Shown here piece after piece: positions 6,688-28,925 of a stretch of 64,000 nucleotides of DNA. A program made the translations under genes and the position numbers. Where the stretch lies: IMG/VR virus record IMGVR_UViG_3300031552_000003, positions 1 through 64,000 of that record. One strand, given 5' to 3'. The notes under the pieces were generated by a model. That model made no database searches. It saw only the letters and a list, made by a program, of their open reading frames with translations, and was not told the origin of the DNA. This DNA comes from a virus. The first letter of the stretch is position 1, and each line of letters opens with the position of its first letter.

Positions 6688-9428
6688 AAAAAATACTAAT
6701 AGTCATATTATCAATTATTTGCATTCAAATTAATGCACAAACATATCAAAAAATTAAAGTAAATCAAATAGATACAAAAGATTCGGCGCAGATTAATCTT
6801 TTAAAACCTTTGAAATTTTTGGATGGGAGTATTCAGGAAACAGCAGGTGGTGTTGAAACTGATCCTTTTTATACAGTTGATAGTTCAGGTATAAAAACAG
6901 ACATACGGAATCTACAAGCATCAGGTTTGACGATGACCTCTAAGCAAATTATAGATTCTATTTCAACTTTTAATATTTTAGAAAGCCCCTACAAAATAAA
7001 TTTTAGAAAATTACGAAATACACATTCAGAGCCATTGTCGGTTACAAGTGACATTGAAATAACGCCTGATACTACGGGCGCATTAGATCAAGGAAGTACA
7101 ACATTTCAATTAATTGGTGACGGTACGCATACAGCAACTTTTGGTTCCCCATTTTCTTCATCTAACGGGATAAGTAAAGATACTTTTGTCAATACAAACG
7201 GTTATATGAGTACCTATTTGGTCTCAGTTTTTGGATCAGGAATTTATAGAATTTACAAATATAGTTTGATTGATTATAGGACAACTCCAGGCGCTCCTAT
7301 AACTTTATCTGCTCCGGGTTCTTTTAATGCTACTGCAATAAGTGAAGATTCAATTGTTTTAAGTTGGAATACTGTTGCTAATGCAACTTACTATCAATTA
7401 GATAGTGCGTCAACTTTAAACGGAACTTATGCAACAATATCAAGCATAATTCCGCAAAGTTCTGTAGGTGACACAATAGCCGGATTAGCAGACAACCACG
7501 AAGTTATTTTCCGAATTCGAAGTTTGGGTGATGGAGTTAATTATTTAACTTCAGGTTGGGCTATTGATAGTGCAACCACATCCGCAAATGATGTTCCTTA
7601 TTACACTACAATAGGATTTACAGGAACTGCGCAAGAAGCTGATACTCTTACAGGTTCTTGGTCTGGATTTGTTGACCCAGACAGCGATCCTGAAGGTATT
7701 CCAAATTTAAAATGGCAAACAAGCGCGGATGGGTTAACTGGATGGTCGGACATCTCAGGCGCAACTGATACAACTTATATAATTCAAGCTTTGGATGTAG
7801 ATAATCATCTAAGATTTGCAGTACAAGCAACAGCAACGGCTGGTAATACTCCTGGCAATTGGCAGTATACAGATTCAAGTTATCAGGTAACTGGATTATC
7901 ATACGCATTAACTTTAACAACAAATTCGGGACCTGGTGATACTTTTAATCCTTCTATTACTGTTTCAGGCGGTGTTGCAAGTTGGGACATGGGGGATGGG
8001 TCTACAATTAATAGTAATACTCCTTCTAAGTCGTACGCAGACGCTACTACAAAGACTGTTAATGTTAGTTTAGGAACTATTCCTAATAATGACAGTATTA
8101 AAACTATTTCAGGGTTTAATAGTAAAAAACTATTATCAATTGATTTAAGTAAATTAGAAAGGCTAAGAGGTTCTATTCAACTTCAAGGCAACACTGAATT
8201 AGCATCTGTATTATTTCCTACCACTTCACAAACTATTACAGAATTATATCTTAATGGGTTAGCTTTAACAGGAGTGGTTGATATTTCTGGATTACCAATT
8301 GCGGGCCCTATTTATCTTATGAATAATGCAGGTGTAACTAATTATATATTAAACAGTAATAATACAGGCGAAGTAACTTATTTAGATGCATCTGGATGTA
8401 ATATTACAGGCACTTTTGATGCCAGTGGGATTCATAGATTTTCAGGGGTATTTAGTTTGTTGAATCAAACCAACTGTGATTCAGTTAGTTTTACAAATAC
8501 TGATAATTTAAGTACAAATAGTTTTACAACTTTTAATTTAGCTGGAACTAAAATTAGACATTTAGATTTATCTCATATAACTAATTTTTCAGGAACAGCA
8601 ACAATTGGCAATTCATTGTTAACTACAACTATCTGGCCTACATCCAATAAAGTATTAGATTTAGATATTAATAATGCAAAATATGTTACACTTGATCTTA
8701 CAACATTAACAGGATTAAGAAAGTTAACTTTTGATGCTATGTCTACATTGACGAGTTTGAGTTTTCCTATAACTACACAAGTTACAACTTGGCTAAAAGT
8801 AGGAGGTTCGTCTATTCAAATGTTAGATATATCACCTTATTCACATCTTGCAGGAGAAATCTACATATGGAATAATACATTAATGGATAGTATTAAAACA
8901 GGAACCAGTTCTGAAAATATAAATGTTTTTAATTTATTAAATTTAAAAAATACATTTAAAACAGTTGACTTATCTGGATATCCTGGATTAGGTGGAAGTT
9001 TAAGTGTAGCTGGATGCACAGGGGTTAATTTAGTGATATTGCCTACTTCTTCTCGTAATTTTACAAGTGTAATAATTATCGGAACAGCTTTAGATAGTAT
9101 TAATACAACATCATTAAGTGGGGCAATTAACTCATTAAATATGAGTTCTAATGCATCATTAAATATATTTAGAGGATTTAACTGGATTAGAACTACTACT
9201 ACAACTGTTAATTTTCAGTATTGCTCTCTGGATGTTGAATCTATAGACAACATTTTAGCAGCATTAAATGCCTACTTTTCTGCAAATGCTCCGACTACTA
9301 ATTTAACTTTGACGTTAAATGGTGGAACAAATGCTGCGCCTACAGGCGGAAATGATAATACTGATGCTGTTAATTTACAAGCAGTGTTTACTGCTGCTGG
9401 TCAGACATTAACTTACGTACACAATTAA
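6684..9428 (+). CDS. Secreted FN3/PKD/leucine-rich-repeat surface protein
   Basis: The 914-residue protein starts with a Sec signal peptide (MKKILIVILSIICIQINAQ, cleavage likely after INA). Next comes a fibre-like segment (LLKPLKFLDGSIQETAGG). A fibronectin type III-like domain lies at about 212-295 (APGSFNATAISEDSIVLSW), an Ig-like repeat at about 300-405, a PKD-like stretch at about 410-470 (VSGGVASWDMGDGST), and many leucine-rich repeats run from about 480 to the end (LYLNGLALTGVVDISGLP and similar). The architecture matches BspA-like secreted adhesins of Bacteroidota. A cleavable signal peptide is unusual for a virion protein, so it may decorate the infected cell surface; a fibre role is the alternative. 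It overlaps its upstream neighbour by 4 bp and an SGNH hydrolase follows. Confidence 0.8.
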   Translation: MKKILIVILSIICIQINAQTYQKIKVNQIDTKDSAQINLLKPLKFLDGSIQETAGGVETDPFYTVDSSGIKTDIRNLQASGLTMTSKQIIDSISTFNILESPYKINFRKLRNTHSEPLSVTSDIEITPDTTGALDQGSTTFQLIGDGTHTATFGSPFSSSNGISKDTFVNTNGYMSTYLVSVFGSGIYRIYKYSLIDYRTTPGAPITLSAPGSFNATAISEDSIVLSWNTVANATYYQLDSASTLNGTYATISSIIPQSSVGDTIAGLADNHEVIFRIRSLGDGVNYLTSGWAIDSATTSANDVPYYTTIGFTGTAQEADTLTGSWSGFVDPDSDPEGIPNLKWQTSADGLTGWSDISGATDTTYIIQALDVDNHLRFAVQATATAGNTPGNWQYTDSSYQVTGLSYALTLTTNSGPGDTFNPSITVSGGVASWDMGDGSTINSNTPSKSYADATTKTVNVSLGTIPNNDSIKTISGFNSKKLLSIDLSKLERLRGSIQLQGNTELASVLFPTTSQTITELYLNGLALTGVVDISGLPIAGPIYLMNNAGVTNYILNSNNTGEVTYLDASGCNITGTFDASGIHRFSGVFSLLNQTNCDSVSFTNTDNLSTNSFTTFNLAGTKIRHLDLSHITNFSGTATIGNSLLTTTIWPTSNKVLDLDINNAKYVTLDLTTLTGLRKLTFDAMSTLTSLSFPITTQVTTWLKVGGSSIQMLDISPYSHLAGEIYIWNNTLMDSIKTGTSSENINVFNLLNLKNTFKTVDLSGYPGLGGSLSVAGCTGVNLVILPTSSRNFTSVIIIGTALDSINTTSLSGAINSLNMSSNASLNIFRGFNWIRTTTTTVNFQYCSLDVESIDNILAALNAYFSANAPTTNLTLTLNGGTNAAPTGGNDNTDAVNLQAVFTAAGQTLTYVHN

Positions 9429-9432
9429 TAAT

Positions 9433-10080
9433 ATGAAAAAGATTTTAATATTATTCGGATTAATACTATCTATTTCAATAGATGCTCAGATTATAAACTT
9501 TTTTCAAAAGAAGTTAGGCAGTAATGTTCACACTATAAATATAGTGTTTGACGGAGATTCGCACACGAATTTAAATATATACCCTCCTTTGCTTGTACAA
9601 GAATTAAGAGACTTAGAATATGTTGTAAGTTATTCAACTATAGGTGTAGGAGGTCGTACTTCTACACAAATGCTGGCCAATGTCCAAAATGTAATTGACG
9701 GACATGACTCGCAAGTAGACTTAAACTTATGTATATACTGGATTGGAACAAATGATATATATTACGATGTAAGTAATGCGACAACTGATAGTAATTTAAA
9801 AGCTTATTACAATGCAATTAAGTCGCAATTTACGGTTATGCAAATTGGTACAACTGATTTAATTGATGACCCTACGAATAAATCACAAACTTTAAATCAA
9901 ATGTTTATTGATAATTGGGAAGGGAATTATTCAGATAATTTTTTAAACTTATTATCAGATAGTCGGTATCAGGATTATTCTAACACAGATATATTTTATG
10001 ACGGTGTTCACATGACAACGTTGGGATACACTGGCGTGAGTGATCTATCATTGCCATTACTTCTCCAATTGATAAATTAA
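9433..10080 (+). CDS. Secreted SGNH/GDSL-family hydrolase
   Basis: The 215-residue protein has a signal peptide (MKKILILFGLILSISIDAQ) and all four SGNH blocks. Block I is FDGDSHTN with nucleophile Ser43, block II is the Gly of GVGGRTS, block III is IGTNDIYY, and block V is FYDGVHMTTLGY with the catalytic Asp-x-x-His. Such enzymes are esterases or deacetylases acting on acyl groups of polysaccharides or lipids. Exported to the periplasm or surface, it could deacetylate host glycans during entry, exit or superinfection control. It lies 4 bp after the LRR protein gene and probably shares its expression. The substrate cannot be deduced. Confidence 0.85.
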   Translation: MKKILILFGLILSISIDAQIINFFQKKLGSNVHTINIVFDGDSHTNLNIYPPLLVQELRDLEYVVSYSTIGVGGRTSTQMLANVQNVIDGHDSQVDLNLCIYWIGTNDIYYDVSNATTDSNLKAYYNAIKSQFTVMQIGTTDLIDDPTNKSQTLNQMFIDNWEGNYSDNFLNLLSDSRYQDYSNTDIFYDGVHMTTLGYTGVSDLSLPLLLQLIN

Positions 10081-16138: not shown

Positions 16139-16654
16139 ATGAAATACAACACAATTAAATTAAAGAATTATTTACATATTCGTGAAGAATATACTGCGGC
16201 AGAAGCTATCCTTCCGGGGATGTTGGTTGAATTAAACAGTTCCGGGACACTTCAAAAACATTCAGGGGCAGGACAAACAGCTCTTCCTATGTTTGCGATA
16301 GAAGATGCTTTACAAGGTAAAGCGATTGATGAAGCTTATGCAGCTTCAGATAAAGTACAAGTATGGGTCCCTACAAGGGGGGATATTGTATATGGTTTGC
16401 TTGCAGATGAGGAAACTGTTGTTATTGGTGATTTTGTTGAAAGTAATGGGGCTGGGTTTCTTCGTAAATTAGTCCGTACAAATGAGAGTTGGGAATCTGA
16501 TGATGATGCCCCGGGTGGAGGGGATCATACTATTTATGATATGCACATTGTAGGACAAGTGCTTGAAGCTAAAGATTTATCTTCTCTTGAAGGTTCTGAA
16601 TCCAGTGCAGCTACGGCCACAACTACGCAGTACACTCAAATTAGAATAATGTAA
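16139..16654 (+). CDS. Head decoration-like protein
   Basis: A 171-residue beta-rich protein starting MKYNTIKLKNYLHIREEY, with LPGMLVELNSSGTLQKH and a segment VQVWVPTRGDIVYGLLADEE that resembles phage decoration or DUF2190-like proteins, which trim or stabilise the capsid surface. A GGAGA site (AAAGGAGAG) precedes the ATG. It lies between the protease and the major capsid gene, the typical place. Confidence 0.75.
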   Translation: MKYNTIKLKNYLHIREEYTAAEAILPGMLVELNSSGTLQKHSGAGQTALPMFAIEDALQGKAIDEAYAASDKVQVWVPTRGDIVYGLLADEETVVIGDFVESNGAGFLRKLVRTNESWESDDDAPGGGDHTIYDMHIVGQVLEAKDLSSLEGSESSAATATTTQYTQIRIM

Positions 16655-16673: not shown

Positions 16674-17777
16674 ATGAAAAACAACGTAAATGTTGATTTA
16701 TTAGGTAATGGAGGCGGGAATGGACAGGTTGCCAAGATGTTATTGTCTAATGGCAAGCTTAATCCCGGGACAATGCGGCCTTTTATTGGAAATGATGGTA
16801 ATTCGTATATAACTTATTATAAGGGGGGTAATCCAAATAAACCGGCGAATTATGTCACACAGCGTATTAATTCAAATGCCACACTTCGTCGTGACGAATG
16901 GAAAGCGTTAGATGAATCTTTGCTTGAAGTAGCTCGTCAACGTCTTGGAGGGGTTCAGGATTTGATTGATAGCGGGCTTACCTATAATTTAGGTAATGCA
17001 ATGGGTACTACAGTACTTGAATATCATGATGTAAGCGATGCAATGGAAGCTGACCTTACTATGGATGGTATTACCCGTGGTAAAAATGATCGTCCTGATT
17101 TTAATTATCATTATTTACCTATTCCCATAATTCATGTTGATTATGAAATCAATGCTCGTGAATTAGCGGCAAGTAGAAATCTTGGTAATCCTTTGGACAC
17201 AATTGATGCTCAAACTGCTGCAAGAAAAGTAGCTGAAAAGTTAGAAGCGATGTTGTTTACCAATACTGATTATTCATTTGGTGAAAAAGGATCGAATGGA
17301 CGAAATACTATCTATAGTTATATCAACCATCCTGACAGGAATTTGGTTACATTGGATATACATTGGGACGATTCTCCGATTACCGGGGCATTGATTGTAC
17401 AGGATGTTCTTGCATTAAAACAGGCATCTATTGCTGATTATCATTATGGCCCGTGGAAATTATACATCCCGACCAATTATGAAACAGTGCTTGATGGTGA
17501 TTATGATTCTACTACACCTGGTACAACTATTCGTGAACGTATTATGAAAATTGCTGGTATTACCGGTATTAAAGTAGTAGATACTTTACCTGCGGACAAT
17601 GTGCTTTTGGTACAAATGACGAGTGATGTTGTTCGTTTAGTCCGTGGCATGGGTATTCAGAATGTGGAATGGAAGTCAGAAGGCAATATGGTGACAAATT
17701 ACAAAGTCATGACAATTCAGGTTCCGCAGATTCGCAGTGATTATAATAAACGGTCAGGAATTATCCATTTGGCTTAA
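16674..17777 (+). CDS. Major capsid protein (HK97 fold)
   Basis: The 367-residue protein builds the icosahedral shell. It lies after protease and decoration genes, has normal length, and shows encapsulin/HK97-type features: an E-loop-like N-terminal part (RRDEWKALDESLLEVARQRL) and IPIIHVDYEINARELAASRN. It ends with a P-domain and A-domain region with YGPWKLYIPTNYETVLDGDY and VVDTLPADNVLLVQMTSDVVRL. A Shine-Dalgarno site AAAGGAGA precedes the start, consistent with high expression. Its N terminus may be trimmed by the upstream protease. Confidence 0.9.
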   Translation: MKNNVNVDLLGNGGGNGQVAKMLLSNGKLNPGTMRPFIGNDGNSYITYYKGGNPNKPANYVTQRINSNATLRRDEWKALDESLLEVARQRLGGVQDLIDSGLTYNLGNAMGTTVLEYHDVSDAMEADLTMDGITRGKNDRPDFNYHYLPIPIIHVDYEINARELAASRNLGNPLDTIDAQTAARKVAEKLEAMLFTNTDYSFGEKGSNGRNTIYSYINHPDRNLVTLDIHWDDSPITGALIVQDVLALKQASIADYHYGPWKLYIPTNYETVLDGDYDSTTPGTTIRERIMKIAGITGIKVVDTLPADNVLLVQMTSDVVRLVRGMGIQNVEWKSEGNMVTNYKVMTIQVPQIRSDYNKRSGIIHLA

Positions 17778-17821: not shown

Positions 17822-18193
17822 ATGATACGAAAAAATAAGGAAAATATTAATACACCATCTTCATTTAATTCTATTACAGAAGGCAGGATTCTTTGGAAAA
17901 ATAATGGTGGGACTTTGAGGCTTAGAAAAAATAAAATTATTAAGCCGGGAGAAAAATTTAAAGCTTATCCACATGAAATTCCAAAAGCATTTCGGGATGT
18001 TATTATTGCATTAGAACCTGTTACAGATTTTAAAGAAGTTGAAATGAACATTCCTTCAATTACATATACATTGAAACCAAGTGATGAAAATGAAGGGTTT
18101 TTTGACATTTATAATTCTCAGAATAAAAAGATGAATGAACTTCCATTGGAAGAAGAAGTGGCTAAGCAGTTAATTAAAGATTTACAAAGTTAA
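17822..18193 (+). CDS. Hypothetical head-associated protein
   Basis: A 123-residue protein with a small beta-rich core (GRILWKNNGGTLRLRKNKIIKPGEKFKA) and acidic C terminus. It follows the major capsid gene by 44 bp and ends just before the glycan island. It has no Shine-Dalgarno site, unlike the three preceding head genes. Proteins of this kind downstream of capsid genes are often head fibres or connectors; no family is recognised. Confidence 0.65.
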   Translation: MIRKNKENINTPSSFNSITEGRILWKNNGGTLRLRKNKIIKPGEKFKAYPHEIPKAFRDVIIALEPVTDFKEVEMNIPSITYTLKPSDENEGFFDIYNSQNKKMNELPLEEEVAKQLIKDLQS

Positions 18194-18197
18194 TTAT

Positions 18198-18920
18198 ATG
18201 TGGCATGTTCCTGAAATATGGAAGAATGGAGAGTGTTGGATATTAGGGGGAGGGCCCTCGTTAGTAGAACAATTTAATATTCCTAAAAATATTGTTCAAA
18301 GTGTTATCGAAGGAAAAACTACCCCTAATGCTTATTCTCCGTACATGGAAGCTATACATGATAAGCATGTGATAGGGGTTAACATGTCTTATAAAATAGG
18401 AAATTGGATTGATTTTGTTTTTTTTGGGGATAGTGGGTTTTTTGTTAGAGAGAAAAACAACATATCAATTTTCCCAGGAATAAAAGTATCATGTCATCCA
18501 CAAGTTGAAAAATGTCCTTGGGTGAAATATGTTGGAAGGGATACAAAGCACCCAAAAGGAATCAGTTCAAATCCTAAAATGGTTTCATGGAATGCAAATA
18601 GTGGTGCAGCATCAATAAGTTTAGCTGCACACCTTGGGGTAAAGAGAATTATTTTAGTAGGATTTGATATGAAATTAGATGATAGTGGTAAACAACATTG
18701 GCATGATTTGTATGGTAAGTTAAAAAACTTAAATATTAATGCTGGAAAAGAAAAAAGAAGGGGGCCAGGAGGATTGCCTTTTAACAGGCATTTATTAGGA
18801 TTTTCTCAAATTGCAAAAGATGCTAATAATATGGGAATTGAAATTTTAAATGCATCTATTAATAGTGCTATACAAGAATTTAAAAAAGTAAATGTAAAAG
18901 ATTTAATTACTGTTAAATAA
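18198..18920 (+). CDS. DUF115/MptE-like protein, putative glycosyltransferase
   Basis: The 240-residue protein begins with CWILGGGPSLVE, a nucleotide-binding-like glycine loop, and contains GVNMSYKIGNWIDFVFFGDSGFF and SGAASISLAAHLGVKRIILVGFDM. This pattern is typical of DUF115 and sialyltransferase-like proteins found in glycan clusters and in phages. It is the first gene of the eleven-gene sugar island and starts 4 bp after the preceding structural gene. Donor and acceptor are unknown. Confidence 0.7.
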   Translation: MWHVPEIWKNGECWILGGGPSLVEQFNIPKNIVQSVIEGKTTPNAYSPYMEAIHDKHVIGVNMSYKIGNWIDFVFFGDSGFFVREKNNISIFPGIKVSCHPQVEKCPWVKYVGRDTKHPKGISSNPKMVSWNANSGAASISLAAHLGVKRIILVGFDMKLDDSGKQHWHDLYGKLKNLNINAGKEKRRGPGGLPFNRHLLGFSQIAKDANNMGIEILNASINSAIQEFKKVNVKDLITVK

Positions 18921-18932
18921 TTATAATCAATA

Positions 18933-19712
18933 ATGAATACAGTAAGGATTTGTGGAGGAGTTGGAAATCAATTGTTCCAGTATGCTTTTGGAAAATTTCA
19001 GGAATTTTTAGGAATATCGGTAGATTATGATATTTCGTGGTATAATAAACCACAAGTTCCACCAAGGTTATTTAGGTTATGTAAATATAAGATTGATTTA
19101 GATAAAAAATTAATTACATCTAAAGTATATAAAAGAACAATATTAGAAAAAGGGTTTAATTCTAAATCTATTATTGATATTGGGTATAAGTATAGTGGAT
19201 ATTGGCAATCTTCTTTTTATCATACAAATATTTTTCCAGTATTAAAGAAAGAATATCAGGTTAAGGAAAATTTTTATACTAAGGAATTTTTAGATTTAAA
19301 AAGAAAAATCACACAAAGTAATTCAGTTTCTTTGCATGTAAGAAGAGGGGATTATCTTGGAAAAAACAACCAATATGTTTTGCCATTAGAATACTATATT
19401 AATGCATTAAAGATATTATCTTTATTAAAAGGAAATTATGTTGTTTTTGTATTTAGTGATGATATTGCTTGGTGTAAGGAATATTTTCCTAATTTTTATT
19501 TTGTACAATTAGATGATTATCTTGAATTAGAATTGATGAGTTGTTGCAAACATAATATTATTGCAAATAGTACATTTAGTTGGTGGGCAGCATATTTAAA
19601 TAATAATTCAAATAAAATTGTAATAGCTCCTAAAAAATGGGTAGCAAGGAAAAAAGATCAAGATTTGATAGATAGAAAAAGGCTTATTTTGCATGATTGG
19701 ATAAAATTATAG
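18933..19712 (+). CDS. GT11 alpha-1,2-fucosyltransferase-like protein
   Basis: The 259-residue protein has the family GT11 hallmarks: RICGGVGNQLFQYAFGKF at the N terminus, HVRRGDYLG (the GDP-fucose-binding HxRRGDY motif) near residue 135, and NSTFSWWAAYLN near 213. The family transfers L-fucose from GDP-fucose in alpha-1,2 linkage; GT11 relatives can use GDP-colitose. Genes 25629 and 24449, downstream, encode enzymes that could make this kind of donor. Length is slightly short but all motifs are present. Confidence 0.92.
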   Translation: MNTVRICGGVGNQLFQYAFGKFQEFLGISVDYDISWYNKPQVPPRLFRLCKYKIDLDKKLITSKVYKRTILEKGFNSKSIIDIGYKYSGYWQSSFYHTNIFPVLKKEYQVKENFYTKEFLDLKRKITQSNSVSLHVRRGDYLGKNNQYVLPLEYYINALKILSLLKGNYVVFVFSDDIAWCKEYFPNFYFVQLDDYLELELMSCCKHNIIANSTFSWWAAYLNNNSNKIVIAPKKWVARKKDQDLIDRKRLILHDWIKL

Positions 19713-19715
19713 TTT

Positions 19716-20462
19716 ATGTATGATATTTTAGTCCCCGCGCATGAAAAAGATTTTACAAAATTAAGTTTTGTATATGATTCTATTATAAAAAATATTGAAG
19801 GATTTAAGGATATTTACCATATAACAAATACAAAAGTTCCAAAATATTTAAGAATTTCAGGAATTAATTATTTTTTAGATGATGAAGTTATTGATTTTGA
19901 TTTTAGTTTGTTTAGAAATACGATAAAGAAAAGAACAGGATGGTATCGTCAACAGTTTGTTAAATTATTTCAAAATGTAACTGGGGATGAGTATTTGGTC
20001 ACAGAAGCTGATAACATATATAATAGGAAGATAAATATTATTGAAAACAATAAACCTGTTTTTTTCTTAGGAAAAGACCAAAATCATGCTCCATATTATA
20101 AGATAATGCAAAAGTTATTAGGCTATGGCAGGGAGTATAATTTTTCGTTTATCAATGAGATTATGTATATAAAACGGGAGTATGTAAAAGAACTTGTTGC
20201 TTTAACTAAATTAAATAAATATGGGTTTTTTGAGTTATTTGCAAATGAATTAAATCGCACACAAGAAACCAGTGGTTGTTCTGATTATGATTTATATGGA
20301 AATTTTATTGCTAAATATCATGAAGATGAATATTTATATAAACATGTTAAAACTGTTGTAACAGCTAAACATTCGGAATGGTCAGAAAGTGATATTAAAA
20401 AACAAATTGATTTATATAAGAATACAGATAATATAATGATAAAATTGCATACATGGATTTAG
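19716..20462 (+). CDS. Glycosyltransferase-like protein (DUF6492 type)
   Basis: The 248-residue protein starts MYDILVPAHEKDFTKLSFVY and has KRTGWYRQQFVKLF and GDEYLVTEADNIYN, where the acidic VTEAD stretch occupies the place of a DxD-like motif in GT-A folds. The GWYxQQ..K pattern is typical of DUF6492 glycosyltransferases. It lies 3 bp after the GT11 gene and overlaps the following gene by 10 bp, so it is part of one translational unit. Confidence 0.75.
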   Translation: MYDILVPAHEKDFTKLSFVYDSIIKNIEGFKDIYHITNTKVPKYLRISGINYFLDDEVIDFDFSLFRNTIKKRTGWYRQQFVKLFQNVTGDEYLVTEADNIYNRKINIIENNKPVFFLGKDQNHAPYYKIMQKLLGYGREYNFSFINEIMYIKREYVKELVALTKLNKYGFFELFANELNRTQETSGCSDYDLYGNFIAKYHEDEYLYKHVKTVVTAKHSEWSESDIKKQIDLYKNTDNIMIKLHTWI

Positions 20463-21331
20463 TGATGTTTCATAGTGGAGAAAAGTTTCCTAATTATCTT
20501 GGAGATACTTTTAAACAAATACGCATGTTTAACCCTGAATTAAACATTCATTTTTTAGTAGATTCTAAATTTTTGCAAAATAAAGTTTTTATTGATTATA
20601 ATATAATTGTAGTTAATAAAGATTTATATTATACAGATAAGATACATGAGTTAAATCTATTATATAAAAGAAAAGCAAATGATTTTTGGACAATTACAAC
20701 TACACGTTTGGTTTATATTGAAAATTATATTGAAAAAAAGGATTTAACAAATGTATATCATTTTGAAAATGATGTATTATTATATCGTTCTTTAAAAGAT
20801 TTTCATACTTTGTTTACTGTAAAATATCCATATTTAGCTATTACAGCAGGAAGTAAATATAAATATATGACAGGATTTATGTTTATTAAGAATTATATTG
20901 CTATTTCTTTAATGACAAGATTTTTTATAGATTTATTAAGTACATATGGTAAAGAGAAAATTATTCGCAAATATAATTTAGGAATGATTCATGAAATGGG
21001 ATTGATGGGGATTTATGGAATTGAAAGAGGTTATATATTCATTACAAAACTGCCTACACTACCAAACTCACCAAATTTTGAAGATTTTAATTCTATTTTT
21101 GACCCGGCAGCGTGGGGACAATTTGTAGGGGGTACACAAAATGAAGGCCCGGGGGCAAAACCTACAGATCATGATATTAGTCAAGTTTTAATAAAACATC
21201 CTGAATATAATGTGATTTGGGTTAAAGATATTGAAGGTAGAAAAATTCCTTTTTTTAAAATGGGTGATGAGCATATTCGAATTAATAATTTACATATACA
21301 TTCAAAAAATTTACATTTATATTTAAGCTAA
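20453..21331 (+). CDS. Putative GT-A glycosyltransferase
   Basis: The 292-residue protein resembles its upstream neighbour in outline. It starts MDLVMFHSGEKFPNYLGDTF, then has VYHFENDVLLYRSL with an acidic pair at the expected DxD position, and a conserved-looking C-terminal LHIHSKNLHLYLS. No exact family is recognised. Overlaps on both sides place it firmly in the island. Confidence 0.65.
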   Translation: MDLVMFHSGEKFPNYLGDTFKQIRMFNPELNIHFLVDSKFLQNKVFIDYNIIVVNKDLYYTDKIHELNLLYKRKANDFWTITTTRLVYIENYIEKKDLTNVYHFENDVLLYRSLKDFHTLFTVKYPYLAITAGSKYKYMTGFMFIKNYIAISLMTRFFIDLLSTYGKEKIIRKYNLGMIHEMGLMGIYGIERGYIFITKLPTLPNSPNFEDFNSIFDPAAWGQFVGGTQNEGPGAKPTDHDISQVLIKHPEYNVIWVKDIEGRKIPFFKMGDEHIRINNLHIHSKNLHLYLS

Positions 21332-22062
21332 TGTTTGATTTTATTCAAGGGGAGAAGTTTGAAAGTTTAGCAGATGGAAAAAACATTTTCTATTGTCATA
21401 CGCATGATATTAAAGAATTTTTAAAAAAACATACAAATACTCCACCTTATATTTTAATTACGCATAATAGTGATAATTGCATTGATTTTAATGCCCCGGA
21501 CAATGTTATTAAATGGTATGCACAAAATGTAAATATAATTGACCCTAAAATAGAATCTTTACCTATTGGTCTTGAAAATGCTAAATGGTTGAAGCGTATT
21601 CCTAAGATTAAAAAAATGGAAGAGAAACTTTTACAACCAAGAAAATATAGGAATCTTTTATATGTAAATCATACAATAGCACATAATCCGGAACATAGAT
21701 ATAAACCATATCAAATATTTAAGAATAAAACATGGGTTACGATGCAATATGGGCATAATGGAAAAGATTTTGATACATATCTTGATAATTTGTATAATCA
21801 TAATTTTACTATTTCTCCACAGGGAAATGGGATAGATTGTCCGCGAACCTGGGAATGTTTGTATATGGGGACGGTCCCAATTGAAAAAAGAAATATAAAT
21901 AATCAATTTTATACAGACTTACCAATATGTTTTGTAGATGATTGGGAGGAAGTAACTGAGGATTTTTTAGTATCAGAATACATAAGAATAAAAACTGGTA
22001 AATGGAATATGGATAAATTGAATTTTGAATATTGGAAAAACAAAATATTTAACTACGTATGA
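21331..22062 (+). CDS. Exostosin-like glycosyltransferase
   Basis: The 243-residue protein has the C-terminal motif NFTISPQGNGIDCPRTWECL followed by YMGTVPIE. This is typical of exostosin/GT47-like and related GT-B glycosyltransferases, where the Glu contacts the nucleotide sugar. The N-terminal half includes YILITHNSD and IESLPIGLEN. It starts on the last base of the previous stop and its own stop overlaps the next start (ATGA). Confidence 0.8.
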   Translation: MFDFIQGEKFESLADGKNIFYCHTHDIKEFLKKHTNTPPYILITHNSDNCIDFNAPDNVIKWYAQNVNIIDPKIESLPIGLENAKWLKRIPKIKKMEEKLLQPRKYRNLLYVNHTIAHNPEHRYKPYQIFKNKTWVTMQYGHNGKDFDTYLDNLYNHNFTISPQGNGIDCPRTWECLYMGTVPIEKRNINNQFYTDLPICFVDDWEEVTEDFLVSEYIRIKTGKWNMDKLNFEYWKNKIFNYV

Positions 22063-23126
22063 AAATAATTGTTATTGGTGCAGGAATATTTGGGATTACA
22101 ATAGCTTTGGAATTATCTAAAAAGTATAAGGATATTACTTTAGTGGATATGAATAATGATATTATGCAAAATGCATCAAAAGTAAATCATAATAGATTGC
22201 ATTTCGGTTTCCATTATCCCAGAAGTAAAACAACTGCTGTGCAAAGTTTGGACGGGTATAAATTATTTCATGATTGTTTTAGTAATGCTATAACTTCTGA
22301 TTTTGAAAATTATTATATGATTGAAAAAAATAGTTATGTTAATAGTGAAAATTATGAACATTTTTGTGATGATTTACATTTGATATATAAAAAACAATCT
22401 CCTAAGTTAGATATAAATTTTGATAGGGTTGAATCTTCTTATTTAACAAATGAACCTATTTTTGATTATGATTTAATAAAGTTGAAATTAGATAAAGATT
22501 TGAAATGTTCAGGAATTAAACTTCTTTTGAATAAGAGAATAACAAATAAAAAAGATTTAGAAGGATATGATGTAGTTATTAATACTACTTATTTTAATAT
22601 TAATAAAATAAAAGGTATTTTAGATTTACCACAAACTAAATTAAAATTACAAACAGTAATCATTCCAATTTTTAAGTATAAAGCACATAAGGTGGGATTA
22701 ACTATAATGGATGGAAAGTTTTGTAGTATTATGCCAAAAGGGTTTAATGATAACACATTTTTATTATACCATGTTAAAGAATCAGTTGTATATCAAACAG
22801 AAAATATGGAGATTCCGAAAATATGGTATTATGGAAAAGAAATTATAAAAAATAATTTTTTGAAAAAGCATGTGTATGATAATGTTATAGTTAAACATCA
22901 AGTTAATAAAATAGTGAAGGAATCTCAAAAATATTTTAGATTTATTGAAAATTGTGATTTTGTGGATTATTGGCAAACTGTAAGGGCTTTACCAATTAAT
23001 GATGATGATGAGAGATTAAGTATATTTGATATATTAGAACAAAATAATCAGAAAATTGTATCTGTATTGTCTGGCAAAATATCAACTTGTTTATTAATTG
23101 CAAATAATATATCTAAATTGATATGA
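22059..23126 (+). CDS. FAD-dependent oxidoreductase (DAO family)
   Basis: The 355-residue protein starts with a clear Rossmann dinucleotide motif, IIVIGAGIFGITIALELSKK, followed by the acidic strand end TLVDMN. NHNRLHFGFHYPRS is a segment seen in DAO-family enzymes of surface-polysaccharide clusters. The C-terminal part YWQTVRALP and VLSGKISTCLLIANNI fits the second FAD-binding segment. Its substrate is unknown; it may oxidise a sugar or sugar nucleotide. Overlaps by 4 bp on both sides. Confidence 0.78.
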   Translation: MKIIVIGAGIFGITIALELSKKYKDITLVDMNNDIMQNASKVNHNRLHFGFHYPRSKTTAVQSLDGYKLFHDCFSNAITSDFENYYMIEKNSYVNSENYEHFCDDLHLIYKKQSPKLDINFDRVESSYLTNEPIFDYDLIKLKLDKDLKCSGIKLLLNKRITNKKDLEGYDVVINTTYFNINKIKGILDLPQTKLKLQTVIIPIFKYKAHKVGLTIMDGKFCSIMPKGFNDNTFLLYHVKESVVYQTENMEIPKIWYYGKEIIKNNFLKKHVYDNVIVKHQVNKIVKESQKYFRFIENCDFVDYWQTVRALPINDDDERLSIFDILEQNNQKIVSVLSGKISTCLLIANNISKLI

Positions 23127-23872
23127 TGAATAGTATTTTATTTGGTAATGGGTATTGGGCTAATATAGTTAAAGAGAAGATTGTTAGTTTGACGAATTTA
23201 GTATTAATTGTGGATTCAAAAACTGATATTAGTATTTGGAATAAGATTAATGTGGATATAGCTTTTGTTTGTTCATCAACTTCAAGTCATTATGATATAG
23301 TTAAAAAATGTTTGGATAACAATATTAAATATATCTTTTGTACAAAACCATTTACAGGGGATTATAAGAAAGCTAAAGAATTATTTAGTATAGCAAATCG
23401 AAAAGGAATTTTTATTTTTATTGATAATCTATTTTTATATAGAAAAGAAATTATTGATATTAAATTAAAAAATATACAAAATTTTGTTTTTCATTGGGAG
23501 AAACCACATAAAATAAACATGGAAAGCATATATGATAGTTTACTTTATCATGATTTATATTTATTGTTAAAATGGAGTAAGTCTAAAAAATGGAAGGTTA
23601 TTTTTGTTGATAGATATGATGATTCATTATATCTATACATGATTAATGAATATTATCAAACTTGTTATTTTGAGTATAATATAAGTGGAAGAAAAAATAA
23701 ATGGATCATATTTGGTGATTTTGTTGTAAATTTAACAACAACAAAACAAGATTCATTAAAAGAGTGTATTATTGATATGTTGCAAGGTGATATAGATTTT
23801 GATTCAAATAAAAAGGTAACATTAGATACTTTGAAATTGTTAAATTTTATTCAAAAAAACCATGATAAATGA
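23123..23872 (+). CDS. Gfo/Idh/MocA-family NAD(P)-dependent oxidoreductase
   Basis: The 249-residue protein has a Rossmann N terminus (SILFGNGYWANIVKEKI), VDIAFVCSSTSSHYDIVKKC and the family motif CTKPFTGDYKKAKELF (the EKP-type lysine motif, here TKP). It is shorter than full-length family members (about 330 residues), mainly in the C-terminal substrate domain. These enzymes oxidise or reduce ring hydroxyls of sugar nucleotides. Tandem ATGs at 23123 and 23126; the first overlaps the previous stop. Confidence 0.78.
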   Translation: MMNSILFGNGYWANIVKEKIVSLTNLVLIVDSKTDISIWNKINVDIAFVCSSTSSHYDIVKKCLDNNIKYIFCTKPFTGDYKKAKELFSIANRKGIFIFIDNLFLYRKEIIDIKLKNIQNFVFHWEKPHKINMESIYDSLLYHDLYLLLKWSKSKKWKVIFVDRYDDSLYLYMINEYYQTCYFEYNISGRKNKWIIFGDFVVNLTTTKQDSLKECIIDMLQGDIDFDSNKKVTLDTLKLLNFIQKNHDK

Positions 23873-24443
23873 TAAATATGTTGATTTATTAAAAGATGAG
23901 TATAAGCAATCGTATTTATTATATAAAAAAGGCTTATTAAAATTAGAAGCTTGGAGTTCTCATCAACCTTTGTTAATCCATGTTTTAAATACAATTAAAA
24001 GTGGGGATGTTTTAGAATTTGGTACAGGATATAATAGCACTCCAATAATGCATATCATTTGTGCATTTCAACAACGAAAATTGTTATCAATTGAAACAAA
24101 TAAAAAATGGGTAGAAAAATCATTGAAATGGAGAAATATTAATCATGTAATTGAATTAGTTTCTTCTAAAGAAATATTAAAACATTCTCTTTTTAGACAT
24201 AAATTTTCAATAGCTTTTATTGATGGTGCCCCGGCGGAGGTTCGTCAACCTTTTTTAGAAAAAGTACAAGCAGATTATCTTATTGTACATGATACAGAAT
24301 GTGTAGTAAGAGGAATTAAAAATGTATATGGTTATGATTTTTCTATGTTTAAACATGTTTATCATTTTAAAAAAGATTCTACTATGACTACATTATTAAG
24401 TAATTTGGATAAAATTGATAAAGATTTATTAACTATATTTTAA
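23862..24443 (+). CDS. Class I SAM-dependent methyltransferase-like protein
   Basis: The 193-residue protein has motif I GDVLEFGTGYNSTPIM, an acidic residue ending strand 2 (KLLSIETNKKW) and the central strand KFSIAFIDGAPAEVRQPF, all typical of Rossmann methyltransferases. It may methylate a sugar hydroxyl on the glycan made by this island. It starts inside the previous gene (11-bp overlap). Confidence 0.78.
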   Translation: MINDKYVDLLKDEYKQSYLLYKKGLLKLEAWSSHQPLLIHVLNTIKSGDVLEFGTGYNSTPIMHIICAFQQRKLLSIETNKKWVEKSLKWRNINHVIELVSSKEILKHSLFRHKFSIAFIDGAPAEVRQPFLEKVQADYLIVHDTECVVRGIKNVYGYDFSMFKHVYHFKKDSTMTTLLSNLDKIDKDLLTIF

Positions 24444-24448
24444 AAAGT

Positions 24449-25624
24449 ATGATTCCATTGATGCGAAATACATTTTTAAATGAATGTGATACTAAACAAG
24501 CTCTTGCAAAATTTATTATAGGAGCGGAAGTATTAAGCATGAATATTCAATGCAAGTCTTTTGAAATAGCTTTTGCTCAAAAGCAAAACAGGGATGAAGC
24601 CATTCTTTTTAATAGTGGAGGGAGTGCTAATTTAGCTTTGTTGCAATCTTTAAAGAATTTAGGTCGAATTAAAGAAGGGGATAAAATAGGGTTTTCTGCA
24701 TTGACTTGGGCGACAAATGTGATGCCTATCATACAAATGGGATTTGTTCCGGTGGCAATAGATTGTGAGGTGAATACATTAAATATAAGTCCAGAACAAT
24801 TATTATCTGTTATAAAAAATATAGATTTAAAAGTATTATTTCTTACAAATGTATTAGGGTTTATAGATAATATTAATGGTATTAAAAATATTTGTGATGA
24901 GTGGGGGATTATTTTACTTGAAGATAATTGTGAAGCATTAGGGACTGAGACTATATATGGAAAAACAGGTAATTTTGGAATTGCCTCTACTTTTTCTTTC
25001 TTTGTAGCTCACCATATGTCAACTATTGAAGGGGGGATGGTTTGTACTGACAATGAAGAGTTAACCGAAATGTTAAAAATAGTACGTGCGAATGGGTGGG
25101 ATAGAAATCTTTCAATTAAGCAACAAAGAAAATGGAGAGAAAAGTTTGATATAAAATCTGAATTTGATGCAAAATATACTTTTTATGATTTAGGATATAA
25201 TTTAAGGCCTACTGAAATAACAGGTTTTTTAGGTTGTTTACAATTGGAATGTTTGAATGATAGTATTAGTAAGCGAGAAATGAATTATTTATTAATTGAA
25301 GATACAATAAAGGAAAATAATGATTTTATAAATATTAAGCATGATCATATTGTTCAATTATCACCATTTGCAATTCCAATAATTTGTAAAACCCCTGAAT
25401 TAAAAAAGAAATATTTATCCAAATGTTTTGATTCGGGAATTGAAACCAGGCCAATGATTGCTGGAAACATGCAAAATCAACCATTCTATAAAAAATATGT
25501 AAAACAAACGTATAATTTACCAAACAGTGATTTTTTACATAATAATAGTTTTTATTGTGGAAACTATCCTGAGATGACAAAAGAAGATTTAAAAATAATA
25601 AAAGATGTTTTAATCAAAAACTAA
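24449..25624 (+). CDS. DegT-family PMP-type sugar 3-dehydratase (ColD/E1-like)
   Basis: The 391-residue protein has the DegT/DnrJ/EryC1 fold: ILFNSGGSANLAL (PLP phosphate-binding loop), IDCEVNTLNISPEQL, and IILLEDNCEALGTE with the Asp that contacts the cofactor pyridine. Where aminotransferases have the Schiff-base lysine, this protein reads SFFVAHHMSTIEGGMV: His188-His189 and no lysine. That substitution defines the dehydratase branch (RfbH/E1 and ColD), which removes the 3-hydroxyl of 4-keto-6-deoxy sugar nucleotides. Length equals ColD (about 390). A GDP-fucose-synthase relative follows by 4 bp. Together they suggest GDP-colitose-type 3,6-dideoxyhexose synthesis. Substrate assignment is inference. 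Confidence 0.8.
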   Translation: MIPLMRNTFLNECDTKQALAKFIIGAEVLSMNIQCKSFEIAFAQKQNRDEAILFNSGGSANLALLQSLKNLGRIKEGDKIGFSALTWATNVMPIIQMGFVPVAIDCEVNTLNISPEQLLSVIKNIDLKVLFLTNVLGFIDNINGIKNICDEWGIILLEDNCEALGTETIYGKTGNFGIASTFSFFVAHHMSTIEGGMVCTDNEELTEMLKIVRANGWDRNLSIKQQRKWREKFDIKSEFDAKYTFYDLGYNLRPTEITGFLGCLQLECLNDSISKREMNYLLIEDTIKENNDFINIKHDHIVQLSPFAIPIICKTPELKKKYLSKCFDSGIETRPMIAGNMQNQPFYKKYVKQTYNLPNSDFLHNNSFYCGNYPEMTKEDLKIIKDVLIKN

Positions 25625-25628
25625 GAGT

Positions 25629-26567
25629 ATGAATATTGATAGTAAAATATTAGTAACAGGTTGTCAGGGAATGACTGGTTGGGCAGTTATAAGAGAATTG
25701 AATAGGCAGGGATATGTAAATATTTATTGTGTTGACAGAGTTGATTGTGATTTATTAGATCAAAAGAGAGTATTAACTCTTTTTGAAAAAATAAGACCAG
25801 AATATGTTTTTCATATAGCAGGAAAAGTAGGAAGTATTTATGCAAATGATACTCAAAGTGGGGATTTTATTTATGAAAATCTTGTAATGCAATGTAATGT
25901 TATTGAATCTGCAAAATTATACAATGTAACGAAACTTTTATTTTGTGGTTCCGCTTGTGTTTATCCAAATTCTGATTCTCAACCTATTAAAGAAGAAGAT
26001 TTATTAACCGGGCCACTTGAAAAAACAAATATAGGTTATGCTATTGCTAAAATAGCAGGTGTCATAATGTGTCAAATGTATAATAAGCAACATAGATGTA
26101 ATTTTATTTCTGCTATACCTGCAAATATTTATGGGATAGGAGATAACTTTAATTTAACTTCGGCGCATGTGGTACCTGGTTTAATTAATAAATTTCATGA
26201 AGCAAAGACAAGTAAAATTTCAAGTGTGGAAGTTTGGGGGACGGGGGAAGCTTGTAGAGAATTTATTTATGTGGATGACCTTGCGAAAGGTTTAGTTCAT
26301 ATAATGAATAATTATGATAATTCAGAAGTTATTAATATAGGCACGGGTATTAGTATTCAGATTAAAGATATTGTTAGAATTATAAAAGATGTTGTAGGAT
26401 ACACAGGTGAAATAATTTATAATAATAATTTTGAAGGTGTCCGGGATCGTTGTTTAGATATAACTAAAATAAAAAGTCTTGGATGGGAAGCTAAGACTGA
26501 TTTTAGAGAAGGTATAAAAAATGTTTATGATTGGTATGTTAATAATTATACTTTTTTAAGAAAATGA
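25629..26567 (+). CDS. GDP-L-fucose synthase / GDP-colitose synthase-like epimerase-reductase
   Basis: The 312-residue extended SDR enzyme has an N-terminal ILVTGCQGMTGWAVIREL and HIAGKVGSIYANDTQSGDFI. The catalytic set is Ser/Cys (CGSACVYPNS), Tyr/Lys (GYAIAKIAG) and His of SAHVVPGLINKFHEA. Both the epimerase Cys and His and the reductase Tyr-Lys pair of GDP-fucose synthase are present. Members convert GDP-4-keto-6-deoxymannose to GDP-L-fucose, or the 3-deoxy analogue to GDP-L-colitose (ColC). No GDP-mannose 4,6-dehydratase is seen here, so the 4-keto precursor would come from the host or from elsewhere in the genome. Confidence 0.87.
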   Translation: MNIDSKILVTGCQGMTGWAVIRELNRQGYVNIYCVDRVDCDLLDQKRVLTLFEKIRPEYVFHIAGKVGSIYANDTQSGDFIYENLVMQCNVIESAKLYNVTKLLFCGSACVYPNSDSQPIKEEDLLTGPLEKTNIGYAIAKIAGVIMCQMYNKQHRCNFISAIPANIYGIGDNFNLTSAHVVPGLINKFHEAKTSKISSVEVWGTGEACREFIYVDDLAKGLVHIMNNYDNSEVINIGTGISIQIKDIVRIIKDVVGYTGEIIYNNNFEGVRDRCLDITKIKSLGWEAKTDFREGIKNVYDWYVNNYTFLRK

Positions 26568-27241
26568 GCACAATAAAAACTATAGTATTAGTATTAAGAA
26601 GTGGAAAGGATTTTTCCATGAGTGATGTAGAATTGATTAATAGACATATTAATATTAAATGGCAATCAGAAGAAAAATTTCGTGTAATTTGTTTATGGGA
26701 TAAGGCTACCCAACATTATAAATTAGGCAATTTGGAATTGATTCCATTGAAAAATAATTACCCGGGCACGTGGTCTCGTATGCAATTATATAGTCCTGAA
26801 ATGGAACAATATCGTCCTTTTTTATATATAGACTTGGATACAGCAATTATTACTTCTATTAAAAATATTTTTGATTTGGTAAAAGATGAATCAAAATTTA
26901 TTACACTTGAAGATTTTTGGCAAAAGAGACAATTAGCTACAGGCTTAGTTTGGTTTCCAAATAATTCACAAAAAATAAAACATGTGTGGGATATATGGAT
27001 AAAAGAACACCAAACAAGAGGGTCAAGAATGGATATGTTTTTACGTAAACATATTGAAGCAGATATTTTTTGGCAGCAATTAACAGATTTAATTGTTGAT
27101 TTTAAACCAAAAAACAGACAACTTGTAACTAAATTGCCAAAAGATGTTAATTTGGTATGTTTTCATGGTAAACCACGGGTACATCAAGCTATAAATATTG
27201 CATGGGTAAATGATTATGTAAATTATGAATTATGCGTGTAA
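26564..27241 (+). CDS. GT-A-type glycosyltransferase-like protein
   Basis: The 225-residue protein starts TIVLVLRSGKDFSMSDVEL and contains RPFLYIDLDTAIITSI, a DxD metal-binding motif, and VCFHGKPRVHQA near the end. The last resembles the C-terminal His-bearing HGxxKP loop of GT8-like enzymes. Overlaps by 4 bp with the upstream and 10 bp with the downstream gene. Confidence 0.78.
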   Translation: MSTIKTIVLVLRSGKDFSMSDVELINRHINIKWQSEEKFRVICLWDKATQHYKLGNLELIPLKNNYPGTWSRMQLYSPEMEQYRPFLYIDLDTAIITSIKNIFDLVKDESKFITLEDFWQKRQLATGLVWFPNNSQKIKHVWDIWIKEHQTRGSRMDMFLRKHIEADIFWQQLTDLIVDFKPKNRQLVTKLPKDVNLVCFHGKPRVHQAINIAWVNDYVNYELCV

Positions 27242-27846
27242 GTATTATAATCCCATATAAAGAAGATAGAGGATGGTTAAAAAAAGCTGTTAAGAGTGTC
27301 CCAAAGAAGAATGTGCAGCTTATCCTTAGTCAGGGAGAAGGAAATTGGCCTCAAAATTTTAATAAAGCATTATCACAAGCTGATGGTGATTTAATAAAAT
27401 TTTTGCATGAAGATGATATGCTTACACCAAATGCAATTGAAAGTTATATTAAGGCATTTAGAAGCCCGTCATTTAAAGATATTCATTTTGCACATGGGAA
27501 TGCTTGGGAAATATTTATGTGCTCAACACGCCCTCCTAAATTGTATATACCAAGAATTGTATTGCCCACATTTGAAAATTTATTAATGCGAAATACTATA
27601 CATAGTGCTTCTTTGATTTACAGAAGGGAAGTATTTGAAAAAATTGGGAATTTAAATGAATCAGAAAATGTATATTCTTTTGAAGAGTATGAATTTAATT
27701 TACGTTGTTTAAAAGGAAATTTGAATATTGGTTATATTAACATACCTTTGGCATATTATCGCCGTCATCCTAAACAAATTATAAGAACTTGTAATATTTC
27801 TGAAAGAAAGCAAAACAGGGCTGAACTTTTAAAAAAATACATATGA
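27232..27846 (+). CDS. Family 2 glycosyltransferase
   Basis: The 204-residue protein begins RVSIIIPYKEDRGWLKKAVK and has QNFNKALSQADGDLIKFLHEDD, the GT2 nucleotide and DxD region, plus SLIYRREVFEKIGNLNE and the EEYEFNLRC catalytic-base-like acid cluster. GT2 enzymes transfer hexoses or related sugars with inversion. It ends overlapping the sulfotransferase gene. Confidence 0.87.
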   Translation: MRVSIIIPYKEDRGWLKKAVKSVPKKNVQLILSQGEGNWPQNFNKALSQADGDLIKFLHEDDMLTPNAIESYIKAFRSPSFKDIHFAHGNAWEIFMCSTRPPKLYIPRIVLPTFENLLMRNTIHSASLIYRREVFEKIGNLNESENVYSFEEYEFNLRCLKGNLNIGYINIPLAYYRRHPKQIIRTCNISERKQNRAELLKKYI

Positions 27847-28541
27847 TTAAAGATAATTCAAATATTCCAATTTTTATTACAGGGGCACAGCGTTCTGGAA
27901 CAACAATCATTGCAAAGATTATAGGCATGTGCGATGTTTTTACAGGGGATATATCAGAGATGATGGAAAATGGTTCTATTAAAGAATTAAATACAATATA
28001 TATTGGTGGAGTTTTAGGAATTGATGAAAGGGGGCAATTTCCGTTACCAGATACAAAAGAATTATTAATTCCAATGAATTGGAAAAAATGTGTCCATGAT
28101 ATTTTAGTTGAAGAAGGATATGATAAAAATAAGATATGGATGTTTAAAAGCCATGCTATTTGTCAATTATGGCCTATATGGAATCATGCATATCCAAATG
28201 CTAAATGGATTATAGTACGCAGGCGTACTGGTGATATTATTTATTCATGTATGAAAACAGCATATATGAATGCTTTTAAAGATAAGGTAATTCAAAAAGC
28301 AGTAGGTGCAAATAATGAACAGGAAGGTTGGCTTTGGTGGGTACGGCAACATGAAAAATTATTTGTTGAAATGATTGAAGCTGGGTTAAATTGTAAAGTT
28401 ATTTGGCCTGAGCGTATGGTAAATGGTGATTATTCCCAGATATATGAGATGCTTGAATGGTTAGGTTTGAAATGGGATGATTCAATTGTAAAAACTATTG
28501 ATCCGCTTTTATGGAACAGCAGACAAAAGGAAAGGAAATAA
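27843..28541 (+). CDS. Sulfotransferase-like protein
   Basis: The 232-residue protein has the 5'-phosphosulfate-binding loop IFITGAQRSGTTIIA (residues about 10-24) and the 3'-phosphate-binding element KWIIVRRRTGDIIYSCMKTA (about 120-140), the two signatures of PAPS-dependent sulfotransferases. It probably sulfates a sugar hydroxyl of the glycan assembled by the island, using host PAPS. It is the last island gene; structural genes resume 4 bp later. Confidence 0.85.
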   Translation: MIKDNSNIPIFITGAQRSGTTIIAKIIGMCDVFTGDISEMMENGSIKELNTIYIGGVLGIDERGQFPLPDTKELLIPMNWKKCVHDILVEEGYDKNKIWMFKSHAICQLWPIWNHAYPNAKWIIVRRRTGDIIYSCMKTAYMNAFKDKVIQKAVGANNEQEGWLWWVRQHEKLFVEMIEAGLNCKVIWPERMVNGDYSQIYEMLEWLGLKWDDSIVKTIDPLLWNSRQKERK

Positions 28542-28544: not shown

Positions 28545-28925
28545 ATGGCAGTAAGGGTGACAGCTGATGAGGTAAAAGAAATAATGGATGGTGTTACATC
28601 ATCTGATCCTACTATAGAAATATTTATTACAGCAGCAAGTGCTGTAATAGATAATGTATTTACAGGGGATACTGTAATAGGGACAACTTTATTAAAGGAG
28701 CTTGAAAGATGGCTTACGGCACACATGTTAGCTTCTACTCTTTTTAGAATGTCTGTACAAGAAAAACTTGGCGAAGCTGAAGTAAAATATATGGGAAAAT
28801 GGGGAGAAAACCTCGCGTCTACACCATATGGTCAAATGTTAAAAGTGCTTGATACAACCGGTAAAATAAGCCAATTGGGGAAATCTTCTGCTACTATGTA
28901 TGCTATAACAAGTTTTGATGATTAA
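28545..28925 (+). CDS. Head-tail connector protein
   Basis: A 126-residue mostly helical protein (VTADEVKEIMDGVTSSDPTI, ELERWLTAHMLAST, PYGQMLKVLD) resembling DUF4054/gp6-type adaptors that bind under the portal. A GGAAA ribosome-binding site precedes the start. It heads the connector-tail gene run after the glycan island. Confidence 0.8.
   Translation: MAVRVTADEVKEIMDGVTSSDPTIEIFITAASAVIDNVFTGDTVIGTTLLKELERWLTAHMLASTLFRMSVQEKLGEAEVKYMGKWGENLASTPYGQMLKVLDTTGKISQLGKSSATMYAITSFDD

Follow-up and report, generated by a model that had tools for sequence, protein, structure and literature searches.

A glycan-modification gene island between the capsid and connector genes of an environmental virus, probably a variable form of a modular virion-modification locus

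We investigated an island of glycan-modification genes in a viral DNA stretch of 64,000 nucleotides (the 64 kb window), which is the first part of the 75,421-base IMG/VR virus record IMGVR_UViG_3300031552_000003. The island, at positions 18198-28541, consists of 13 co-oriented open reading frames (ORFs) on the + strand, as obtained by ORF calling, where an earlier note made from the sequence alone had counted eleven genes. Seven of the genes are glycosyltransferase-like and two encode oxidoreductases; the others are a weakly supported methyltransferase, a 3-dehydratase of ColD type, an epimerase-reductase resembling GDP-fucose synthase and ColC, and a sulfotransferase using 3'-phosphoadenosine 5'-phosphosulfate (PAPS). 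The portal (12112), MuF (13542), protease-like (14510), decoration (16139) and major capsid protein (MCP, 16674) genes lie upstream, and the connectors DUF4054 (28545) and neck1 (29327) stand directly downstream. These head and connector family matches confirmed the coordinates given in the earlier note and the setting between capsid genes and head-tail connectors. Profile matches likewise bore out the enzyme families that it had listed, the methyltransferase and some of the glycosyltransferase calls being weak; the place and the families of its observation stood, the gene count did not. The genes of the site and of the proposed acceptor are as follows.

16139..16654, + strand: capsid decoration (cement) protein, the proposed acceptor, outside the island (phrog_766 head decoration, E 2.8e-11)
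16571..16633, + strand: C-terminal loop of the decoration protein, rich in Ser/Thr (residues 145-165, KDLSSLEGSESSAATATTTQY)
16674..17777, + strand: MCP, left border of the site (DUF6260, E 1.4e-22; phrog_771, E 9e-25; 56 related loci)
17822..18193, + strand: w17822, small two-domain protein adjoining the MCP, in every cassette and in 0/19 empty sites
18198..18920, + strand: w18198, putative CstII/MptE-like transferase, constant left gene (phrog_4603 'alpha-2,3-sialyltransferase', E 8e-29)
18933..19712, + strand: GT11 glycosyltransferase, alpha-1,2-fucosyltransferase family (PF01531, E 2e-27)
19716..20462, + strand: DUF6492 protein, probable glycosyltransferase (PF20102, 23.9 bits, cut-off 22.9)
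20453..21331, + strand: w20453, tentatively of GT-A type from its D-rich motif HFENDVLLY, no family match in profile searches, homologues in 10 loci
21331..22062, + strand: weak exostosin GT47/RXYLT1-like glycosyltransferase (PF24785, E 1.4e-5; PF03016, E 0.0044; each under cut-off), of a family common in cassettes (27 loci)
22059..23126, + strand: oxidoreductase dependent on flavin adenine dinucleotide (FAD), DAO family (PF01266, E 1.5e-11)
23123..23872, + strand: Gfo/Idh/MocA-type oxidoreductase (PF01408, E 7e-10); this gene and the DAO gene are each unique among 77 compared cassettes
23862..24443, + strand: weak class I methyltransferase-like protein (NCBIfam NF011529, E 9e-4, under cut-off), homologues in 11 loci
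24449..25624, + strand: w24449, putative ColD-type GDP-4-keto-6-deoxymannose 3-dehydratase, dependent on pyridoxamine 5'-phosphate (PMP) (ColD 2gms, E 4e-55)
25629..26567, + strand: w25629, GDP-L-fucose synthase (GFS)/ColC-like epimerase-reductase (NF047922 GDPFucSynFcl, E 1.6e-110, under cut-off; PDB GFS, E 3e-79)
26564..27241, + strand: phage glycosyltransferase family phrog_1962 (E 6e-29)
27232..27846, + strand: GT2 glycosyltransferase (PF00535, E 1.3e-6, above cut-off)
27843..28541, + strand: w27843, PAPS-dependent sulfotransferase, most often the gene that closes the cassette (PF13469, E 3.6e-9)
28545..28925, + strand: head-tail connector DUF4054, right border of the site (PF13262, E 1.9e-5; phrog_302)

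Within the island the gene spacings range from -11 to +12 bp, with overlap at 8 of the 12 junctions, and the GC content of the interior is 26%, compared to 35% for the upstream head genes and 32% downstream. Several head and tail genes (window positions 14510, 16139, 16674, 28545 and 30595) have strong Shine-Dalgarno sequences (AAGGAG, AGGAGG), while the island genes from 18198 to 27843 are almost devoid of them, which suggests a low, coupled translation of the enzymes. Compared with 50,697 phage records, the window gave no match at the DNA level, and no cultured phage gave a near DNA match.

A scan with the capsid protein returned 56 loci, and 385 were reached once w18198, the sulfotransferase and further capsid proteins had also been used as queries. 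After removal of duplicate-capsid-gene loci, 123 distinct loci span the interval from the capsid gene to the connector. Among these, 87 carry all three of w17822, w18198 and the sulfotransferase, 12 have the first two without the third, 4 hold w17822 and the sulfotransferase without w18198, 1 (L303) presents just a short w17822 match within a 264-bp gap, and 19 are empty. The loci fetched by the capsid protein, distributed in the same order as 41, 11, 4, 1 and 17, constitute the fair subset, since those fetched by w18198 or the sulfotransferase carry these genes by construction. The gap between capsid gene and connector measures 4-620 bp at empty sites and about 1.0-11 kb where a cassette is present. 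The w17822 gene occurs at 104/104 filled and 0/19 empty sites (25/25 and 0/6 in the capsid-fetched subset first compared), and w18198 in 99/104 cassettes. The survey of relatives for the borders of the island, which the earlier note had proposed as a check, thus found constant ends at a fixed site. As position and boundaries are conserved in about 100 relatives, chance is excluded and the island is real.

The smallest cassettes comprise w17822 and w18198 (L020), the same two genes with the sulfotransferase (L278), or w17822 and the sulfotransferase only (L216, L273 and L279), from which it follows that the transferase and sulfotransferase modules can exist separately; larger cassettes add glycosyltransferases. 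Between the end genes, the 77 compared cassettes hold a median of 5 interior genes each (range 0-12), 385 in all. Together with the 11 of the window these make up 99 families, of which 63 are singletons. When 140 interior genes were scanned against Pfam, they belonged mainly to GT2, methyltransferase, nucleotide-sugar epimerase/dehydratase, FkbM, GT11, radical-SAM/B12 and adenosine 5'-phosphosulfate (APS) kinase families, and a hydropathy scan detected a membrane-like segment in 7/385. In the nearest relative, L002, whose capsid protein is 86% identical to that of the window, one glycosyltransferase-like gene replaces the DAO, Gfo/Idh/MocA (GFO_IDH) and methyltransferase genes, a difference that points to recent cassette turnover. 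As judged from the sequences compared, the insertion site is fixed, the end genes are constant and the interior is hypervariable.

Other observations concern this lineage and its hosts. The MCP shares about 30-35% identity with proteins of bacterial (Brevundimonas, Klebsiella) and haloarchaeal viruses (Halorubrum phage Hardycor1). Relatives of the MCP occur in metagenome-assembled genomes (MAGs) binned as Bacteroidota, Balneolales, Spirochaetota, Myxococcota, Syntrophomonadaceae and others, the binning of phage contigs being unreliable. One cassette lies with phage structural genes inside a Candidatus Zixiibacteriota MAG chromosome (CP070742.1; L220:6411-15933). It is degenerate-looking, with capsid, w17822, w18198, glycosyltransferase, methyltransferase and connector genes, and is apparently an integrated or remnant prophage, of which the bacterial-looking flanking ORFs support bacterial hosts for the lineage. 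At L218:12849-16209, a diversity-generating retroelement occupies the island position, adjoining w17822 and w18198; it presents bAvd-like and reverse-transcriptase genes and a 113-bp repeat pair with 17/19 differences at template adenines.

The AlphaFold model of w18198, with a predicted local distance difference test (pLDDT) score of 90, gave as its top two Foldseek matches MptE (8sd5; E 2.8e-3, probability 0.98, TM 0.33) and CstII (1ro7; E 7.5e-3, probability 0.99, TM 0.47); its sequence profile had no match in the PDB. In 11 distinct long ORFs the protein is joined with additional domains. We propose w18198 as the putative initiating enzyme. The model of w17822 shows two small domains (pLDDT 84), the N-terminal of which recurs in 7 ORFs as part of a longer cassette protein; this points to a role in docking. 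We also considered w17822 as an acceptor and rejected it: it is poorly conserved, with a mean column identity of 20%, and has no near-invariant Ser, Thr or Tyr.

The profile of the decoration protein matches the capsid decoration protein 9ocb_H (E 1.1e-9) and the capsid stabilizing protein 5wk1_X (E 3.6e-9) of the PDB. Its C-terminal loop is extended and Ser-rich in phages that carry w18198, with the consensus DLSxSSGxESS, and at least 3 Ser are present in the loop of 131/154 such phages and of 0/21 phages that lack w18198. The Ser content reaches 22% in the loop, compared to 5% in the rest of the protein, and a column test of eight structural families revealed clustered Ser columns and an insertion in the decoration protein alone. 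L026, in which w18198 was lost and the sulfotransferase kept, exhibits the loop VTATGGTAR, while its neighbour in the capsid tree, L024, which carries w18198, has the loop VNMSNSSTVDPSNR. These sequence correlations make the loop a strong lead as candidate acceptor.

The sulfotransferase w27843 scored 37.6 bits against Sulfotransfer_3 (cut-off 27) and presents both the 5'-phosphosulfate loop (RSG[TA]) and the 3'-phosphate motif (VRR..D..SC); the residues R17, S18 and G19 of the former and V125, R126, R127, D131 and S135 are invariant in 20 orthologues. The only solved matches of its profile are the protein-tyrosine sulfotransferases TPST1/2 (E about 1e-3), and Tyr occurs in the decoration loop of 34/86 phages with the sulfotransferase and 1/12 without it, a borderline difference (p 0.05). 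In 59 of 70 compared cassettes that bear it, the sulfotransferase directly abuts the connector; the gene that intervenes in the other 11 is an APS-kinase homologue in 7, and a search for this family found it in 7/50 relative records. As APS kinase makes PAPS, the donor of the sulfotransferase, the activity call is independently supported. A tblastn search with w27843 of the 50,697 phage records gave no match at E 1e-5, and our search of open-licence papers found no phage system pairing a sulfotransferase with capsid glycosylation. In L216, L273 and L279 the sulfotransferase occurs without any cassette glycosyltransferase, and the acceptor there is unlikely to be a cassette-made glycan, which suggests that sulfation does not require a glycan made by the phage.

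The w24449 protein first matches the DegT aminotransferases, but His replaces the catalytic Lys (FFVAHHMSTIEGG, aligned to the ColD His188 region) and the nearest solved relative is ColD (2gms, E 4e-55), ahead of E1/RfbH (3bcx, 4.5e-43), so that the sugar dehydratase named in the earlier note holds; the score against NCBIfam RfbH lies under its cut-off. ColC is related to the GDP-fucose-synthase family. The Lys-to-His change is diagnostic of 3-dehydratases, and the lack of a four-Cys [2Fe-2S] motif is a feature of ColD (PMC8987622). Taken with w25629 and the GT11 gene, w24449 suggests GDP-colitose or a similar 3,6-dideoxyhexose. Dehydratase genes with the E1/RfbH-type motif SFYPAHHISTGEGG were observed in three relatives (L003:3302-7042, L011:6587-7873 and L086:2236-5283), so that 3,6-dideoxysugar genes recur in the lineage; in L003 and L086 they are accompanied by a DegT aminotransferase gene and lie upstream of the decoration and capsid genes, outside the cassette.

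Considering these data together, we regard the island as probably a variable form of a lineage-wide modular virion-modification locus, with the virion decoration protein as the likeliest acceptor. The earlier note had left two options, decoration of the virion or remodelling of the infected-cell surface; the comparative evidence favours the former, because the site is fixed by the capsid gene, membrane segments are few and the Ser loop covaries with w18198, and makes the latter less favoured. While the anatomy of the locus, its variation and its couplings are read directly from the sequences, its chemistry and acceptor are predicted from them. In the proposed mechanism, w18198, expressed late, would put the first sugar on Ser of the decoration-protein C-terminal loop, and the cytosolic glycosyltransferases and nucleotide-sugar enzymes would extend and tailor it, here probably with colitose or another 3,6-dideoxyhexose derived from the host pool of GDP-4-keto-6-deoxymannose. 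The sulfotransferase would sulfate either the glycan or a side chain of a protein, w17822 would be the docking or adaptor protein that ties the enzymes to the assembling head, and the outcome would be a capsid surface chemistry exchangeable through cassette turnover. The sulfated, methylated deoxyhexose glycan envisaged in the earlier note fits the enzyme list; its deoxyhexose would have to do without a phage enzyme for the first step, as described below, and a glycan is one of two candidate acceptors of the sulfate. More tentatively, the locus may provide an exchangeable, sulfate-bearing modification of the decoration protein, built from a module of O-glycosylation initiator and Ser loop, a sulfotransferase module for protein or glycan with optional PAPS synthesis and a shared capsid-linked adaptor, of which cassette exchange would generate an O-antigen-like virion diversity.

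Several results weigh against this interpretation. The fold matches of w18198 are modest in E-value (Foldseek 3e-3 to 8e-3), its score against PF01973, the MptE-like Pfam family of the DUF115 superfamily, is 24.9 bits, under the cut-off of 34.6, and the w17822 model has no fold match in the PDB. The extended loop is absent in 8 phages that carry w18198, and some w18198-bearing phages without it adjoin lineages that lack w18198. On the MCP tree, the absence of w18198 needs about 6 changes and yields a single well-supported independent contrast, so that the association between loop and w18198 is not significant after phylogeny. No GDP-mannose 4,6-dehydratase (GMD) was found in the 75 kb phage record, which is possibly incomplete, PF16363 matching w25629 only; the deoxyhexose pathway would thus need GDP-4-keto-6-deoxymannose from the host.

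A cassette that remodels the glycans of the infected cell, lipopolysaccharide (LPS) or capsule, for instance as a superinfection block or a release aid, is a rather unlikely alternative, even if the genes resemble those of LPS and O-antigen biosynthesis (ColD, GFS/ColC, GT11, GT2), colitose is a known O-antigen sugar (PMC8987622) and a variable interior could follow host strains. With so few membrane-like interior genes, the lipid-carrier, flippase and GtrA-type steps of O-antigen conversion are missing, and the fixed site within the head operon, the tight tie to the capsid-adjoining w17822 and to the decoration loop, and minimal cassettes of one transferase or one sulfotransferase all argue for the virion instead. 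O-antigen conversion of the gtr type was rejected, the membrane machinery being nearly absent among the 385 interior genes. It is also unlikely that the virion is modified on w17822, the MCP or a tail protein, with the loop correlation a mere product of phylogenetic noise. That w17822 is the sole component of every cassette, that mycobacteriophage glycans sit on capsid and tail-tube C-termini (PMC12619734), and that the loop has exceptions and its phylogenetic control is weak speak for such an acceptor; the low conservation of w17822 and its want of near-invariant hydroxyl residues do not, and no clustered gain of Ser accompanies w18198 in the MCP, connectors, neck or tail proteins.

An ordinary 'moron' cargo, that is, a hot spot of unrelated glycan genes with no common function, would agree with the interior GC of 26% against 35% and with the many singleton families, and is nevertheless very improbable, as the end genes are constant and in constant order, the cassette is coupled to w17822 and APS kinase, and its members form domain fusions. 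Hypermodification of the phage DNA with sugars, as in phages like T4 or others described recently, is scarcely credible. Phage glycosyltransferases are best known for this role (Pyle et al. 2024, as cited in PMC12619734), but the phage record holds no thymidylate-synthase/hydroxymethylase homologue (PF00303), the early genes tested include no base-modifying enzyme, and a sulfotransferase, APS kinase and a link to the capsid gene are not expected from it. DNA modification as the purpose was rejected on the absence of the hydroxymethylase homologue from the phage record.

In mycobacteriophages (Che8, Rita and relatives), virion glycans occur on both capsid and tail proteins (Freeman et al. 2023, as cited in PMC11256854 and PMC12619734), and these citing papers describe phage-encoded glycosyltransferases as proposed or shown to glycosylate the two kinds of protein. 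The present locus differs by its fixed site between MCP and connector, its constant end genes, a hypervariable interior with nucleotide-sugar synthesis, a sulfotransferase, sometimes an APS kinase, and the decoration protein as candidate acceptor, and its lineage is known from environmental contigs and MAGs only. In Maravista the glycosyltransferases reportedly lie close to the genome's 3' end, unlike the island here, where seven glycosyltransferase-like genes between MCP and connector, at a conserved site, are tied to structural genes. Comparable loci are hdmABCD of P1/P7 and gp10-gp12 of Pseudomonas phage PAJU2, in which a w18198 homologue (phrog_4603) stands with glycosyltransferase or methyltransferase genes among head-tail genes: with a methyltransferase in PAJU2 and, as hdmB, with the glycosyltransferase hdmD in P7. 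Small versions of such loci thus exist in cultured phages. They have two to four genes, no sulfotransferase and another insertion point (after head closure in PAJU2), and the homologues share 27-34% similarity over less than half of w18198. Colitose biosynthesis (ColD/ColC) for Gram-negative O-antigens likewise pairs an adjacent Lys-to-His 3-dehydratase and GDP-fucose-synthase-family epimerase-reductase, plus GT11; here the pair lies within a phage head operon, with no 4,6-dehydratase in the record. Sulfotransferases of marine phages and cyanophages (OM43 phages, Synechococcus phage S-SRM01) are also of the Sulfotransfer_3 family, and according to PMC10580990 it is unclear what phage sulfotransferases do; in the present lineage the enzyme is a conserved positional component.

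Elsewhere in the window, an ORF at 54018-55250 (- strand) encodes a uracil-DNA-glycosylase domain and, after it, a Pol I-type 3'-5' exonuclease domain, and adjoins a separate family A polymerase gene. Ahead of the portal gene, a GDSL-type lipase/acylhydrolase gene (9433-10080, + strand) comes after the gene of a large protein with a PKD domain (6684-9428).

Phage virion glycosylation has mostly been studied in mycobacteriophages, where it influences antibody recognition. The relatives, which share one capsid background, offer a natural series: sites that are empty, that carry the transferase or the sulfotransferase alone, that carry both, and that hold full cassettes. Together with a named candidate acceptor loop, this series makes the targets of the sulfotransferase and the reasons for capsid-sugar variation directly testable.

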